35,187 nt of DNA from Pseudomonadota bacterium (GTDB taxonomy: Bacteria; Pseudomonadota; Gammaproteobacteria; Steroidobacterales; Steroidobacteraceae): contig JANXWS010000044.1 in NCBI GenBank assembly GCA_025351005.1, positions 1-35,187 of the forward strand. The letters run 5' to 3'. A program made the translations under genes and the position numbers. Numbering within the stretch: position 1 is the first letter of the stretch; each line of letters begins with the position of its first letter. The notes under the pieces are model-generated. The model searched no databases, was not told the origin of the DNA, and saw only the letters and a program-made list of their open reading frames with translations. This document shows, piece after piece, positions 19,310 through 29,685 of the stretch.

Positions 19310-19313
<4 letters not shown>
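18489..19313 (-). CDS. hutG: N-formylglutamate deformylase
   Basis: Cytoplasmic zinc hydrolase converting N-formyl-L-glutamate to glutamate and formate, the last step of the five-step histidine pathway. The protein has 274 residues, the usual length. Family marks are [11 protein letters not shown] near 13-23 (H17 a likely metal ligand), [48 protein letters not shown] and GGYITRRYG. The GTG at 19313 overlaps the hutU TGA as GTGA, so translation is coupled. The C-terminal 20 residues ([13 protein letters not shown]...) are low-complexity. Together with hutF next door this shows the formylglutamate route rather than direct formiminoglutamase (formamide-releasing) cleavage. Confidence 0.93.
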
Positions 19314-20986
<1,673 letters not shown>

Positions 20987-21006
20987 AAGGCCTCTGGGCT
21001 TGCGCC

Positions 21007-21720
21007 CTACAGGTCGAAGATCCCGCGCAGCTCGAAGCGGCTGCCGGCGTGGTGCAACAGGGCGAAGGACGCGGGCTCGCCACGGCTCCAGGTGGTGCGC
21101 TCGATCAGCAGCACCGCGTCGGCGGCGGCGAGCGCGAGCAGCCTTCGGACGCGCGTCCCCGGCAACACGGCCCGCACGACGTGGTCGACGCGTTCCAGAG
21201 GTGCCACCTCCATCAGGTACTCGTGCGCGGTGACGCTCCCGAAGTCGACCGAGAGGTAGCCGGGTGCGGCAGCCGGGCTCACGTAGCGGTCCTCGAGCTG
21301 CAGCGGCGTGTCGCGGTCGTAGTGGACGATGACCGTGTGGAACACCTGGCGCGCGCGCGCCTTGAGCGCAAGCTTGGCGCGCACGTCGGCGGGCGGTGCC
21401 ACGCGCTCGGCGGAGATCAGCTCGGCACGGTAGGCGTGGCCACGTTCGCGGATCTCGGCGGCGATGCTGCGCAGCTGCAGCGGATGTCCGGCCGCGCGCA
21501 GGTCGGCGACGAAGGTGCCGCGGCCGGCGACCCGCGACAGGACGCCGGCGTGCACCAGCTCGCGGATCGCGCGATTGGCGGTCATCCGCGACACCTTGAG
21601 CTCGCGCACCAGCTCGTGCTCGGACAGTACGCGCGCACCCGGCTGCCACTCGCCGGAGCGGATCCGGCCGAGCACGTGGTCCTTGACCTGTTCGTACAGC
21701 GGCGTCACCACGGCGCTCAC
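21007..21720 (-). CDS. hutC: GntR/HutC-family repressor of the hut operon
   Basis: Repressor of 237 residues. An N-terminal winged helix (about 6-72: [52 protein letters not shown]) precedes a UTRA effector domain (about 90-235). HutC proteins are released from DNA by urocanate. The GTG at 21720 overlaps the hutF TGA as GTGA; this gives the standard N-terminus, so the longer open frame is not used. Its only obvious target in the window is the perfect palindrome at 23101-23114 between hutF and hutI. Being in the operon it controls, it should limit its own synthesis. Confidence 0.93.
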
Positions 21721-23093
21721 TGGAGCCCGGCCCGCTGAAGTCGCGCCAGGCAGGCCGCGTAACCGGCGTCGATCGCATCGCGCTCGCGGTGGCGCCCGCC
21801 GGCGACCAGCTGCTCGCCGCCGACCCAGACGCCGCTGATTGCGCCCGCTCGCGGTGCGAACACGAAGCCGTCGACGAGCGCCTCCGCCTGCAGGCCCGCG
21901 AACTCGGCGCGCCCCGTGTCGAGCAGCACGACGTCCGCCGGCGCGCCGATCGCGAGACCTTGAGTGCGATAGCCAAGCGCTTGCGCGCCGCCGGCAACGG
22001 CGTCGCTCCACAGCGAGGTGCCGGCATGCGGCACACGCTGGGAGGCGGCCAGCACTCGACGCCCGCGCCAGAGCCTGAGCGTGTATTCGGCGGTGCGCAG
22101 CTCCTCGCGCGGATCAATGGAAACGTGGCTGTCGGAGCCGACGCCGAAGCGGCCGCCGGCGGCGAGCAGCTCGTCAAGCGGGAATCGTCCGTCCCCGAGG
22201 TTGGCCTCGGTCGTCGGGCACAGCCCGACGACGGCGCCGGTCGCAGCGATCCCGGCCAGCTCCGCGGAATTGACGTGAGTCGCGTGCACCAGGCACCAGT
22301 GCGGGCCGGCGTAGCCGCCCTCCAGCAGGTACTCGACCGGTCGCCGGCCGTAGGCGGTGACACAGTCGTCGACTTCCCGCGCCTGCTCGGCGACGTGAAT
22401 GTGCACCGGACAGGCGCGCCGCCCCTGGCGGGCGTGGGCGGCGACCGCTGCGAGCGCTTCCGGCGGCACCGCGCGCAGGCTGTGGATCGCCACTCCGGTG
22501 CGCTCGCGCGGCGACTCGCGGGCGGCGAGTTCGGCGCACAGTTCGAGGAACGGCCCGGTCGCGTTGTAGAAGCGCTGCTGCGCGCGCAGCAGCGGCTCGC
22601 CGCCGAAGTTGCCCTGCTGGTAGAGACAGGGAAGCAGCAGGTGGCGGATGCCGCTGGTGCGCGCTGCCGCGCGGACCGCCTCGGCGACTGCACTGACCGT
22701 GGCGTAGTGGCGCCCATCCGTGTCGTGATGCAGGTAGTGGAACTCGGCCACCGCCGTGTAGCCGGACTCGAGCATCTCGGCGTAGCAGAACGCGCTGATC
22801 GCGGCGACGTCGACCGGCGCAAGCCGCTCGACGAAGCGGTACATGACGTCGCGCCAGCTCCAGAATGAGCCTTCGACGCCGGCCAGCACCTCGGCGCTGC
22901 CGGCCATCGCGCGCTGAAACGCGTGGCTGTGCAGGTTCGGCATGCCGGCGAGCGCGAGGCCCTGCCGGAACGGGCCGCGCTCGGGGTGGCAGTCCCGCTC
23001 CAGGCGGACGATGCGGCCGTCCGGCGCGACTTCAAAGCAGACCCGCTGCGCGAGGCCGTCCGGCAGCAGCGCGCGCTCGAATGCAAGCTCCAC
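21717..23093 (-). CDS. hutF: Formimidoylglutamate deiminase
   Basis: Amidohydrolase-superfamily zinc enzyme removing ammonia from N-formimino-L-glutamate to give N-formylglutamate. The protein has 458 residues, normal for HutF. Metal-site motifs are H55 and H57 in [28 protein letters not shown] and [23 protein letters not shown] is also characteristic. The start is a GTG at 23093 giving [15 protein letters not shown], which matches HutF N-termini. An upstream extension runs back through the intergenic operator and is rejected. An AGGGA site 5 bases before the GTG lies partly inside the HutC palindrome. It is the first gene of the leftward hut operon. Confidence 0.93.
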
Positions 23094-23100
23094 GAAGGTC

Positions 23101-23114
23101 CCTGTATATACAGG
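23101..23114. promoter_or_regulatory. HutC operator
   Basis: CCTGTATATACAGG is a perfect 14-bp palindrome with the TGTATATACA core associated with HutC-type GntR regulators. It lies in the 75-bp gap between divergent hutF and hutI, 7 bases before the hutF start and 54 before hutI. Its left arm overlaps the AGGGA ribosome-binding site of hutF. One site could control both directions. Confidence 0.8.
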
Positions 23115-23168
23115 TTGGGGGGCTGTGATATTAATCCGCCGTGTCGAGCTTGGACAGAGGTAGCGGCG

Positions 23169-24413
23169 GTGTGGGACCAGCTGTGGGTGGACGTGCGGCT
23201 CGCGACGGTGGTGCCGGGCGCCGCGGACGCGGGCCTGATCGAGGACGCAGCGCTCGGCGTTGCCGGCGGCCGCATCGTCTGGGTCGGTGCGCGCTCGGCA
23301 CTCCCTGCTGCGCCGCACCAACTTGCTCACGAGGTGCGGACGGGCGGCCAGCGGTTGCTGACACCCGGACTCGTCGACTGCCACACGCATCTCGTGTTCG
23401 GCGGCGACCGGGCCCTGGATTTCGACCTCCGTAGCCAGGGCGTCAGCTACGCCGCGATCGCGGCCGCCGGCGGCGGTATCCGGGGGACGGTGGCGCGCAC
23501 GCGCGGCCTGTCCGCGGAGGAACTGGCGGCGCTCGCGCTGCCGCGGGCGCGCGCGCTTCTGGCCGAAGGCGTCACCACGCTCGAGGTCAAGTCCGGCTAC
23601 GGACTCGACGTCGCCACCGAACTGCGCATGCTCGAGGCCGCGCGGCTCCTTGGCCGGCAGCTCGACGTCGAGGTCGTGTCGACGCTACTGGCGCTGCACG
23701 CGCTGCCGCCGGAGTTCAGCGACGATCGCGCCGGCTACCTCGACCAGGTCATCAACGAGCTGCTCCCGGCCGCCACCGGGCTCGCGAGCCAAGTCGACGT
23801 GTTCTGCGAGTCGATCGCCTTCACGCGCGCCGAGTGCGCGCGCGTGCTCGGCGCCGCGCGCGACCGCGGCCTCGCGGTCAAGGTGCATGCCGACCAGCTG
23901 TCGGACCAGGGCGGTGCGGAGCTCGCGGCCGAGTTCGGTGCGCTGTCGGCCGATCATCTCGAGTACACGTCGGCGCAGGGCGTGGCGGCGCTCGCGGCGA
24001 GCGGCACGGTCGCGGTACTGCTGCCGGGCGCGTACCTGATGCTCGGCGAGACGCGCCGCCCGCCGGTCGCTGCGCTGCGCGCCGCCGGCGTGCCGCTCGC
24101 GGTCGCGACCGACCTGAACCCCGGGACCTCGCCGTGCACGTCGCTGCCGGTCGCGCTCACGCTGGCGCGGGCGCAGTTCGGGCTGGGGGCGAGCGAAGGC
24201 GTGGCGGCCGTCACGCGCGTGGCCGCCGCCGCGCTCGGCCTCGGCGCCTCGCGCGGCACGCTCGAGACCGGCAAACGCGCGGATTTCTGCCTGTGGAATC
24301 TCGGCCACCCGCGCGAGCTCGGCTACTGGCTCGGGCCGGGCGCCTGCCACGTCGTGGTCCGCGAAGGCAGGGTCAGGCTGGTCGAAGGGGCTGTCGAGGG
24401 CAGGCCGTCCTGA
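23169..24413 (+). CDS. hutI: Imidazolonepropionase
   Basis: Amidohydrolase opening 4-imidazolone-5-propionate to N-formimino-L-glutamate, the step between HutU and HutF. The protein has 414 residues. Metal and active-site motifs are H72 and H74 in [54 protein letters not shown] and [15 protein letters not shown], all standard for HutI. The GTG at 23169 has AGAGG 8 bases upstream. The frame is open back into hutF territory, but no HutI sequence lies there. It is divergently transcribed from the rest of hut and probably shares the HutC operator. Confidence 0.95.
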
Positions 24414-26807: not shown

Positions 26808-27547
26808 GACGGGCCGCCGCCGGCCGCCTGCCGCTCGGCGCCAAATCGTTCGGGCAGCAGCCCCGCGAGCTCGGCACGGGTCAGGTTGCGCCAGCGGCCC
26901 GGCTCGATGCCCTCGAGGCGGACATTGACGAAGCGCACGCGCACGAGGCGCCTGACCGTGTAGCCGAGCGCGTCGCACATGCGTCGGATCTGGCGGTTTA
27001 GGCCCTGCGTCAGCACGATGCGAATCACGTTCTTCGACACGCGCGCGACCTCGCATGCGGCGGTCTTCGTCTCGAGAATCAAGACGCCGCCGGCCAGCGC
27101 CGCCACGAACTCGTCGGTCACCGGGCGGTCAACCGTCACCAGGTACTCCTTCTCGTGGCCGTGTTCGGCGCGCAACAGGGAGTTGACGATGTCGCCGTCG
27201 TTGGTGAGCAGAATCACGCCCTCGGAATCCTTGTCGAGGCGGCCGACCGGAAAGACGCGCTCACGGTGGGCGACGTAGTCGACGATGTTGTGCGCGACCC
27301 GCTGGTCGGTCGTGCACTCGATACCCGCGGGCTTGTGAAGCGCAATGTAGACGTGCCGCGTCGGGCCGCCGAGCGGCCCGCCATCGAGCCGCACGTCGTC
27401 GCCGGGAGCGACGCGCGTCCCCAACGTCGCCAGCCCGCCGTTGACCGTGACGCGCCCGGCCGAGATCCAGTTGTCGGCCTCGCGTCGCGAACACAGGCCG
27501 CGATCGCTCAGGTACCTGTTGATTCGCAGCCCGGCGTCGACAGTCAA
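26804..27547 (-). CDS. rluF: RluF-type 23S rRNA pseudouridine synthase
   Basis: Pseudouridine synthase of the RsuA/RluB family, 247 residues. An N-terminal S4 RNA-binding domain (about 7-52: RINRYLSDRGLCSRREAD) is followed by the catalytic domain with D105 in VGRLDKDSEGVILLTNDGD. LTQGLNRQIRRMCDALGY and EKEYLVTVDRPVTDEF match RluF, which modifies 23S rRNA position 2604 (E. coli numbering), sometimes also tRNA-Tyr. The only start near the domain boundary is TTG at 27547, overlapping the dnaB stop as TTGA with GAGGG upstream. I use it, noting TTG is rare. RluB or RsuA are less likely from the motif wording. The downstream peptidase overlaps its stop. Confidence 0.82.
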   Translation of the reverse strand: MTVDAGLRINRYLSDRGLCSRREADNWISAGRVTVNGGLATLGTRVAPGDDVRLDGGPLGGPTRHVYIALHKPAGIECTTDQRVAHNIVDYVAHRERVFPVGRLDKDSEGVILLTNDGDIVNSLLRAEHGHEKEYLVTVDRPVTDEFVAALAGGVLILETKTAACEVARVSKNVIRIVLTQGLNRQIRRMCDALGYTVRRLVRVRFVNVRLEGIEPGRWRNLTRAELAGLLPERFGAERQAAGGGPS

Positions 27548-29685
27548 CGAAACACGCCCTCGCCGTAGGACTCGGCAACAAGGTTCTCGAAGCGCGTGAA
27601 CTCGCCGAGAAAGGTCAGGTGCACTTCGCCGGTCGGGCCGTTGCGCTGCTTGGCGACGATGATGTCGGCGACGCCCTTGCGAGTCGTGTTCGGCTCGTAC
27701 ACTTCCTCGCGGTAGATCAACAGGATGACGTCCGCGTCCTGCTCAATGGCGCCCGAATTGTGGCAGACGATGCCGTCCGCGAGCCAGCTGGCGGGTCCCG
27801 GAACCGTGAGATCGAAAACCTCCTGCTCGCCCGCGGGTTCGATGGCGACGACCGGATCCCACAACAGGTCGGACTCAGACCACTCGCGGATCTCCGGATC
27901 CTCGAGCAGCTCGGCGGACGACCCCGGCGTTGCGCGACCGGGCGCGAACCGGACATGGGCGGCGCCGCCGGACGACGTGGCGCGCAGCGCCGCCGATCGG
28001 CGCTCGGAAATGCCGCGTTCGCCCACCGTGGCCCTGACCCGCCCGACTGCCTCGGTCCGAAAGGCATCAACACTTGGAATAACCAGAACGCTTTCGAGGT
28101 GCCGGCGCAACGCGGTTGCTGCGGCCAGACGCGGACCGAAGGCCCAGACCCGGTCGAGAAATCGCCGCCGAACTGGTTCGGACTCCGCCACGCGCTGCGG
28201 CTGCGCCGCCGGAGGCACGCATCGCGCAAGAGCCACGCGCGAGCCCTTTGCGATGTCGGCGAGCCGCTGCCAGCCGTGCCCCGTGTAGATCCGATGCTTG
28301 GCCGTCGCGGTGATCGCGCGGCCGCTCTCGAAACTGACCCGAAACACACGCCTGACGCCGACGCACCAGACCCGGTCCGAAATCGCCGCCACGAGCTTCT
28401 GGTGCTCGTCCATCGCCCAGACCCGCGGAGTCTGGCCGACCAGGTCGCGGATCGGCATGCGCCCACCATCCGCAAGGCAGACGCGCGTGTCACCGGTCAC
28501 GCATTCGCGCAGGTCGCTCATGACCGGCTTCTTCTCGACGCGCTGCTCGACGCTGCGGTTGAGCTGCGAGAGCGCGATCACGGGGAGCTTCAGCTCCTTG
28601 GCGAGCGCCTTCAGCGAGCGCGAGATCTCCGAGATTTCGGTCGCGCGGTTCTCCTTCGTGCCAGGCACCTGCATCAGCTGCAGGTAGTCGATGACGATCA
28701 GCCCAAGCCCCTTCTCGCGCTTGAGGCGTCGCGCCCGCGCGCGCACCTCCGTGGGCGTCAGGGAGCCAGTCTCGTCGATGAAGATCGGCGCCTGCGACAA
28801 CACCTCGGTCGCGCTCGTAATCCGCGGCCAGTCCTCCGCCGACAGCGCGCCGGTGCGCAGGTGGCTTTGGCTGACCCGGCCGAGCGACGCAATCATCCGC
28901 ATCGTCAGCTGCTCGGCCGACATCTCCATCGAGAAGATCGCCGACGGCACCTTGTGCTCGATCGCCGCGTTCTCGGCAATGTTGACGGCCAGCGTCGTCT
29001 TGCCCATCGACGGGCGGCCCGCGATGATCACGAGGTCGCCCGGCTGCAGCCCGGTCGTCATCCGGTCGAGCTCGGTGTAGCCAGTGCGGACGCCCGTGAA
29101 CTGGCCCGGGTTCTGGTGCAGCTGATCGATGCGGTCGATTGTTCGCGGCAGCACGTCGCGGATGTTCTGGAAGCCCGCGCGCGTGCGGGTGCCGCGCTCG
29201 GCAATCTCGAACACCAGCCGTTCCGCCTCCTCTACCAGCTCGGCCGGGGGTCGGCCGCCGCTGCTGAGCGCGGTCGCCGCGATCTCGCCGCCGGCGTGCA
29301 CCAGCTGCCGCAGCAGCGCGTAGTCGCGGACGATCGCTGCGTAGGCGCGGACGTTCGCCGCGCTAGGCGTGTCGCGGGTCAGGCGCGCCAGGTAGCCGAG
29401 GCCGCCGCTGTCGTCCAGCAGGCCCTTGCTGCCCAGTGCTTCGGAGACCGTGACGGCATCGCATGGACTGCGTGCATCGACCAGCCCGGCGATCGCTTCG
29501 AAGATCAGCTGATGGTCGCGACGATAGAAGTCGTGCGCAGCGATCAGATCGGCGACGCCGTCCCAGGCGGTCGCATCGAGCATCAGGCCGCCGAGCACCG
29601 CCTGCTCCGCCTCGACCGAGTGCGGCGGCAGCCGCAGACCGTCGGCCGCCTCTGGCGAGCGGCGCGGTGAACCCGCGAGCGGCAT
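27544..29685 (-). CDS. dnaB: Replicative DNA helicase DnaB containing an intein
   Basis: Hexameric 5'-3' helicase of the replication fork. The precursor has 713 residues: N-extein 1-394, intein 395-643, C-extein 644-713, giving a mature DnaB of 464 residues after splicing, the normal size. Visible marks are the N-terminal domain (LRLPPHSVEAEQAVLGGLM), linker, Walker A GRPSMGKT (223-230), Walker B region GLIVIDYLQLMQ, VIALSQLNRSVEQR and, after the intein, SGAIEQDADVILLIYREEVY. The intein interrupts the SDLRE/SGAIEQDAD motif, part of the conserved ATPase core, so splicing should be needed for function. The ATG at 29685 has GAGGT 6 bases upstream. The gene follows rplI, as in many gammaproteobacteria, and overlaps rluF by 4. 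Confidence 0.95.
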   Translation of the reverse strand: MPLAGSPRRSPEAADGLRLPPHSVEAEQAVLGGLMLDATAWDGVADLIAAHDFYRRDHQLIFEAIAGLVDARSPCDAVTVSEALGSKGLLDDSGGLGYLARLTRDTPSAANVRAYAAIVRDYALLRQLVHAGGEIAATALSSGGRPPAELVEEAERLVFEIAERGTRTRAGFQNIRDVLPRTIDRIDQLHQNPGQFTGVRTGYTELDRMTTGLQPGDLVIIAGRPSMGKTTLAVNIAENAAIEHKVPSAIFSMEMSAEQLTMRMIASLGRVSQSHLRTGALSAEDWPRITSATEVLSQAPIFIDETGSLTPTEVRARARRLKREKGLGLIVIDYLQLMQVPGTKENRATEISEISRSLKALAKELKLPVIALSQLNRSVEQRVEKKPVMSDLRECVTGDTRVCLADGGRMPIRDLVGQTPRVWAMDEHQKLVAAISDRVWCVGVRRVFRVSFESGRAITATAKHRIYTGHGWQRLADIAKGSRVALARCVPPAAQPQRVAESEPVRRRFLDRVWAFGPRLAAATALRRHLESVLVIPSVDAFRTEAVGRVRATVGERGISERRSAALRATSSGGAAHVRFAPGRATPGSSAELLEDPEIREWSESDLLWDPVVAIEPAGEQEVFDLTVPGPASWLADGIVCHNSGAIEQDADVILLIYREEVYEPNTTRKGVADIIVAKQRNGPTGEVHLTFLGEFTRFENLVAESYGEGVFR
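27757..28503 (-). mobile_element. DnaB mini-intein (249 residues, endonuclease lost)
   Basis: In-frame protein-splicing element at DnaB residues 395-643. Block A starts with Cys1 (CVTGDTRVCLADGGRMPIRDL). Block B has the TxxH motif T67-A-K-H70 (ITATAKHRIYTGHGWQRL). Block F reads DPVVAIEPAGEQEVFDLTVPG. Block G ends GIVCHN with His248-Asn249, followed by Ser as first C-extein residue. All groups needed for Cys/Ser-type splicing are present. The middle (about 96-215) contains no LAGLIDADG motif. Its segments QPQRVAESEPV and RFLDRVWAFGPR read like the two flanks of the endonuclease in full-length DnaB inteins, now joined directly. The Hint domain is intact. Autonomous homing should be lost. Confidence 0.93.

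Follow-up and report, generated by a model that had tools for sequence, protein, structure and literature searches.

The homing-cycle model of inteins and the occurrence of natural mini-inteins have both been well described (PMC1508164, PMC4071816 and PMC8966425, in the sections drawn on here). The model predicts invasion, fixation, decay and loss, steps that single examples seldom show. For the fungal PRP8 inteins, the relevant part of the report of Butler et al. 2006 states that intermediate lengths and endonuclease remnants were not seen (PMC1508164); such intermediate inteins are not unheard of, as parts of two other papers indicate, since halobacterial inteins vary in size (PMC4071816) and PhoVMA has a partly truncated endonuclease (PMC8966425). 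Among DnaB inteins, the excerpts cited place the Ssp intein after Gly(-1) (PMC6333167) and Msm DnaBi2 in DnaB motif H4, with a G-1V variant named (PMC6195587). Here we describe a DnaB intein that follows Glu, two codons upstream of the Ssp position, together with the alleles found at the same site in its relatives.

The window, by which we mean the whole stretch of 35,187 nucleotides analysed, belongs to a 2.7 Mb draft genome (G000; 90 contigs, 86% complete). Its dnaB frame (27544-29685, on the (-) strand like all features given below) encodes a precursor of 713 residues and is open throughout. An N-extein of 394 residues ending in SDLRE (28504..29685; PF00772 and PF03796 matches) and a C-extein of 70 residues starting at Ser+1 with SGAIEQDAD (27547..27756; stop codon at 27544-27546) flank an in-frame insert of 249 residues (27757..28503; DnaB residues 395-643). 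The ribosomal protein L9 gene lies upstream of dnaB, and a frame for a pseudouridine synthase, taken to start at TTG, has a 4-base overlap with the dnaB stop. Elsewhere in the window, a 1321-codon frame (19310-23275) has urocanase domains that begin only at residue 776; its first 775 codons may be open through GC-rich composition or may be part of something else.

The insert begins with a Cys1 codon (28501..28503), which we take, from general knowledge of class 1 inteins, to encode the N-terminal splice nucleophile. Alignment with other inteins places the block B TxxH, here TAKH, at intein residues 67-70 (28294..28305); the C-terminal splicing blocks EVFDLTVPGPASWLADGIVCHN (27757..27822; TIGR01443 and alignment) end in the penultimate His and terminal Asn codons (27757..27762). 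Cys1, TxxH, His-Asn and Ser+1 together make this a class 1 intein. Class 3 inteins, such as DnaBi1, are without a nucleophile at intein position 1, and the Cys1 sets the window intein apart from them. Pfam Intein_splicing (PF14890) matches the insert at E 7e-16 (58.8 bits against a cut-off of 35.8) and the NCBIfam cut-offs of TIGR01445 and TIGR01443 are exceeded, scores not expected by chance; in both databases DnaB domains lie on either side of the splicing domain. In these respects the sequence carries what the earlier note had read from it. A sub-threshold EFL1 match (Pfam, 20.3 bits, cut-off 30.9) was taken as chance. No LAGLIDADG family, and no nuclease family of any kind, was listed for the insert by Pfam at E<=1, in agreement with the claim that its middle lacks such a motif, and three full-length relatives do match LAGLIDADG_3, at E 7e-22 to 8e-18. 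Since the two motifs with their catalytic Asp are absent, the insert falls outside the definition of a LAGLIDADG homing intein; with no endonuclease domain between its splicing blocks, and derived by deletion from a full-length intein, it is a mini-intein. Its 249 residues exceed the 130-200 usual for mini-inteins in the account of PMC1508164 because a remnant is kept, and that range is customary rather than a strict definition.

We put at roughly nine in ten the probability that the insert is a class 1 mini-intein in dnaB whose precursor splices itself and which, through one 172-codon deletion, has lost homing and kept a decaying linker. Aligned without gaps, the window intein equals residues 1-111 plus 284-421 of its 421-residue relatives, with 172 codons (516 bases) absent and no other change in length. 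In the protein fit (ungapped comparison with a profile of 26 inteins), residue 111 gives the best break and 107-111 come close to it. When the DNA was compared with that of 12 relatives, each of exactly 421 codons, the break fell at codons 110-114 in eight, tied in one (G100, at about codon 107 or 111) and lay elsewhere in three (G016, G234 and G021). Protein and DNA comparison together locate the junction at intein residues 107-114 (28162..28185), best at 111/112, which upholds the earlier proposal of a single in-frame deletion near residues 108-114. Two MAFFT runs that placed residues 108-111 or 101-111 differently were set aside, as they need extra gaps and the ungapped fit covers the whole length. 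In the three full-length relatives with LAGLIDADG_3 the domain ends at residue 291-293, so that the deletion removed nearly all of it; both endonuclease aspartates are absent from the window intein. The model of one of these three relatives resembles the structures of the TliVMA intein, PI-PfuI and I-DmoI.

The ancestor would thus have been a 421-residue LAGLIDADG intein, of a kind still present in sister species, from which a single in-frame deletion of 172 codons took both motifs. With these missing, the window intein should be unable to home by itself, as the earlier note held; it would no longer cut empty alleles and would be inherited vertically or with the host gene. In a search of its own genome, LAGLIDADG_3 turned up solely in a second intein, and, the genome being 86% complete, an endonuclease elsewhere in it could be missed. 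That second intein, of 411 residues, interrupts Dcd, the dCTP deaminase (G000:C24:34863-36095, (-) strand; L002/L003; PF22769, TIGR02274). Its first LAGLIDADG motif reads LLGLMLASG, and with LASG in that motif it is possibly catalytically dead. The same place in Dcd (HN/STYARCG, a slash marking a splice junction here and below) holds inteins in the family (L081, L089 and L090) and in a record titled Betaproteobacteria (L069).

The loss was not as clean as had been claimed: the junction is clean, and yet about 92 residues beyond the endonuclease core survive, making this a partly trimmed mini-intein. The vestigial segment (intein residues 112-203; 27895..28170), recognised from alignment, conserved positions and low pLDDT, is the counterpart of what comes after the LAGLIDADG core in full-length relatives. 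As near-invariant we counted positions conserved in 90% or more of a reference set of 25 inteins (at least 417 residues, both aspartates), of which 22 belong to the family and the others are G146, L065 and L066. The remnant keeps 11 of 21 such positions, against 45 of 52 in the splicing halves (32/37, or 0.86, in the N-terminal and 13/15 in the C-terminal part), and each reference, left out in turn, keeps 0.80-1.00 of the same stretch, which points to relaxed constraint in the remnant. The N-terminal splicing half of the window intein, at 0.86, is itself slightly below all 25 references (0.90-1.00).

It is nonetheless conceivable, if unlikely, that the segment has been retained for a purpose, as an aid to folding or splicing or for conditional splicing. 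It is collinear with its counterparts and still alignable at the DNA level (score 56 against a shuffle maximum of 30, with five long relatives), while the linkers of the other three short inteins of the genus score near or below the shuffle maximum (G001 32/31, G011 25/32, G007 26/31). Its ratio of amino-acid change, tail to Hint, is 1.72, not outside the 1.31-1.86 of 12 full-length inteins, with synonymous sites near saturation, and splicing was impaired in several inteins after removal of the endonuclease domain, according to a part of PMC8966425. Against a retained function, 10 of the 21 near-invariant residues are lost, the remnant is modelled at a pLDDT of only 29-50 (AF2 model, ten-residue blocks), and six mini-inteins of the family make do with 140-145 residues. 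In the model of one full-length relative the post-core stretch is helical, at low confidence. We favour the reading in which the leftover endonuclease-side residues would act as a linker that is decaying.

By phmmer, the window intein is closest among PDB sequences to the DnaB inteins of Ssp (6frg, E 2e-27) and Npu (4o1r, E 4e-22). Its AF2 model reaches a pLDDT of 74-92 (ten-residue blocks) over residues 1-90 and 211-249, and the top structural matches of that model in the PDB are again the Ssp and Npu DnaB inteins (1mi8 and 4o1r), with a TM by target of 0.88, so that a Hint fold is predicted. TxxH and His-Asn are intact in all 47 aligned inteins; the conservation of Cys1 and Ser+1 is no independent test, because both were in the pattern by which the 47 were chosen. 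From the intact recognised catalytic residues and the predicted Hint fold we infer that the precursor most likely splices itself by the standard class 1 route. Cys1 would form a thioester followed by transfer to Ser+1, Asn cyclisation would be helped by His248, and the products would be a 464-residue DnaB and a free intein of 249 residues. A few near-invariant positions of the splicing domain have other residues in the window intein (for example T for R65 and L for F386, reference numbering), which would suit an intein that splices poorly or no longer, this dnaB then being in the course of inactivation or a second copy. We regard this as improbable, given that the catalytic residues are unchanged, no stop codon interrupts the 713 codons of the frame, the window genome yielded a single dnaB match at E<=1e-60 and dnaB is described as essential for replication (PMC7360933, in the part cited).

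Two further alternatives to self-splicing after a genuine deletion fare worse. That the deletion is an assembly artefact is very improbable: the genome is a draft in 90 contigs, but the break preserves the reading frame exactly, conserved positions of the remnant are altered and other genomes have other short forms. That the middle region is an intact but divergent endonuclease is extremely improbable, as no nuclease family matched the intein at E<=1, residues 112-203 fall in alignments on the region beyond the LAGLIDADG core, and 92 residues are few for a LAGLIDADG pair, which takes about 170 in relatives.

The full-length and empty alleles that the earlier note had proposed to seek in related genomes were both found. 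Among 15 genomes of the genus, the window's included, four carry short inteins (G000 249, G001 208, G007 204 and G011 189 residues), three (G004, G008, G010) have 421 residues with both LAGLIDADG aspartates, G005 has 405 residues with the second aspartate lost, and G009 has an intein broken over two contigs with its first motif altered. The site is empty in four (G002, G003, G013, G014), reading uninterrupted DLRESGAIEQ or DLRESGALEQ; no dnaB match was obtained from G006, and G012 yielded just a fragment.

We then searched 217 genomes of the family with a full-length intein and 212 of them (G000-G036 and G060-G234) with an empty-allele DnaB, counting the alleles twice by hand from the ranges of the matches. 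DnaB was matched at E<=1e-60 in 189 of the 212. The site is empty in 137 (42, 52 and 43 by batch) and occupied in 50, comprising 46 interrupted DnaB matches (28, 13 and 5 by batch) and four in which the intein-bearing part of DnaB is on a separate contig (G062, G071, G116 and G166); the other 25 either did not show the site or have the intein in a diverged paralogue (G146; L063, a DLRE/SG intein in a DnaB of 38% identity). Complete inserts could be read in 44 of the 50, those of G009, G061, G071, G116, G166 and G167 being cut or broken. Twelve of the 44 have 140-249 residues, two have 345 and 348, and 30 have at least 396. Both aspartates are kept in 25 of these 30, among them three shortened to 396-413 residues (G026, G062, G089). 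The other five lack one or both (G005, G016, G077, G208 and G217; loci L007, L014, L057, L082 and L046, respectively): near full length, with the LAGLIDADG aspartate or aspartates replaced, they apparently became inactive ahead of deletion. The inteins of 345 and 348 residues (L078 in G119 and L079 in G132) have deletions inside the endonuclease, and in G119 both aspartates are retained.

On a quick tree of DnaB exteins, the short alleles (249 residues or fewer) need at least eight changes, and empty versus occupied at least fifteen, these being parsimony counts without direction on a tree with SH-aLRT support only. The tree holds 124 genes, 80 from genomes with an empty site (of 137) and 44 from those with an occupied one (of 50), and covers all 12 mini-inteins; G112 was excluded for its shortness, and G062, G071, G116, G166 and G208 were not entered. 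A short intein should rarely regain its endonuclease. Three mini-inteins are paired with long sisters, namely G219 (140 residues) with G217 (434, first aspartate lost), G110 (194) with G100 (421) and G023 (145) with G164 (423), which suggests recent loss. Within the genus, G007 groups with G011 as its sister (100/100) and G000, more weakly, with G001 (67/77), and two to four deletion events are possible. A shared ancestral deletion for the genus mini-inteins was considered and rejected, the linker pairs G007/G011, G000/G001, G001/G011, G001/G007 and G000/G011 not scoring above the shuffle maximum.

The window intein and its relatives read DLRE/C...HN/SG(A/S)(I/L)EQ, with Glu as the residue before the intein. 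The pattern of the classical DnaB-a site, DLRESG followed by S(I/L/T)EQ, is found in L180, L181 and L187 and not in the window; the Nocardia and phage PaV-LD DnaB inteins read DLRESG/C...HN/S(L/T)EQ. The insertion point is thus two residues upstream of the Ssp-type site, in agreement with the earlier note. Two records titled Beta- and Gammaproteobacteria, L065 and L066, likewise have the upstream site. A scan of the class gave matches at E<=1e-25 in 17 of 369 genomes, the window's own included; of the 16 others, L182-L186, L191 and L192 show the upstream site at both ends, a matching C-terminal end is all that L190 shows, L187 is at the canonical site, and the remainder are at other sites, in other genes or not resolved. 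A scan of 398 genomes of the phylum at the same threshold gave no match outside the window's own genome. L184 and L191 have two inteins in DnaB, one at DLRE/SG and another followed by TTFAMN or TSWALN, presumably the P-loop site. When 42 long inteins were placed in a quick tree, two Dcd inteins serving as the far group, the 38 upstream-site inteins fall together (branch SH-aLRT 100), apart from the two canonical ones, a result to be taken with caution given the long branches. The idea that a host Ala after SG forces the shift was rejected as a strict rule: 69 of 74 upstream-site loci have Ala and five have Ser, some genomes being counted repeatedly. A text search for SDLRE with intein, which does not reach into figures, found no paper, and none on the DLRE/SG site was named among the matches listed (best 15 of 19; best 10 of 162).

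We think it likely that DLRE/SG is a distinct class of DnaB insertion spread through Gammaproteobacteria, that one family displays the homing cycle in all its stages at once, with alleles that are empty, intact, point-dead, part-deleted, remnant-bearing or minimal, and that endonuclease loss there has been frequent and stepwise, with a directly readable route to the minimal intein such as the PRP8 series did not offer. At a single site within one bacterial family, related alleles can be compared that are empty, active-looking, dead or truncated, intermediate lengths among them, and the series allows direct tests of whether catalytic death precedes deletion, how often deletion recurs and how long a linker the splicing domain requires. 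The short natural inteins could also serve as splicing tools.

Among known systems, the Ssp and Npu DnaB inteins (1mi8, 6frg, 4o1r) are like the window intein in Hint fold, DnaB host, class 1 residues and sequence, and are its nearest folds. The mycobacterial and nocardial DnaB-a inteins (Msm DnaBi2, Mtu DnaBi and Nocardia L181) share class 1 and motif H4 with it, on the evidence of part of PMC6195587, but are full length with an endonuclease; L181, a full-length homologue, sits at DLRESG/S rather than DLRE/SG. The Planktothrix phage PaV-LD intein (L180; HQ683709.1 4787-5209), whose record gives only 'replicative DNA helicase' as product, is likewise a natural DnaB mini-intein, but at the canonical site, in a phage gene and of a minimal 141 residues. 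The mycobacterial DnaBi1 mini-intein is another endonuclease-free DnaB intein; it differs in its P-loop site b and class 3 mechanism, as the cited part of PMC6195587 has it. The fungal PRP8 inteins, finally, present full, mini and empty alleles at one site, as does DLRE/SG, but the intermediate lengths and endonuclease remnants of the DLRE/SG series are absent from the PRP8 series as reported in the part of that work cited above. The window insert is a natural mini-intein, of a kind already known, and its relatives form an unusually complete series of the homing cycle.
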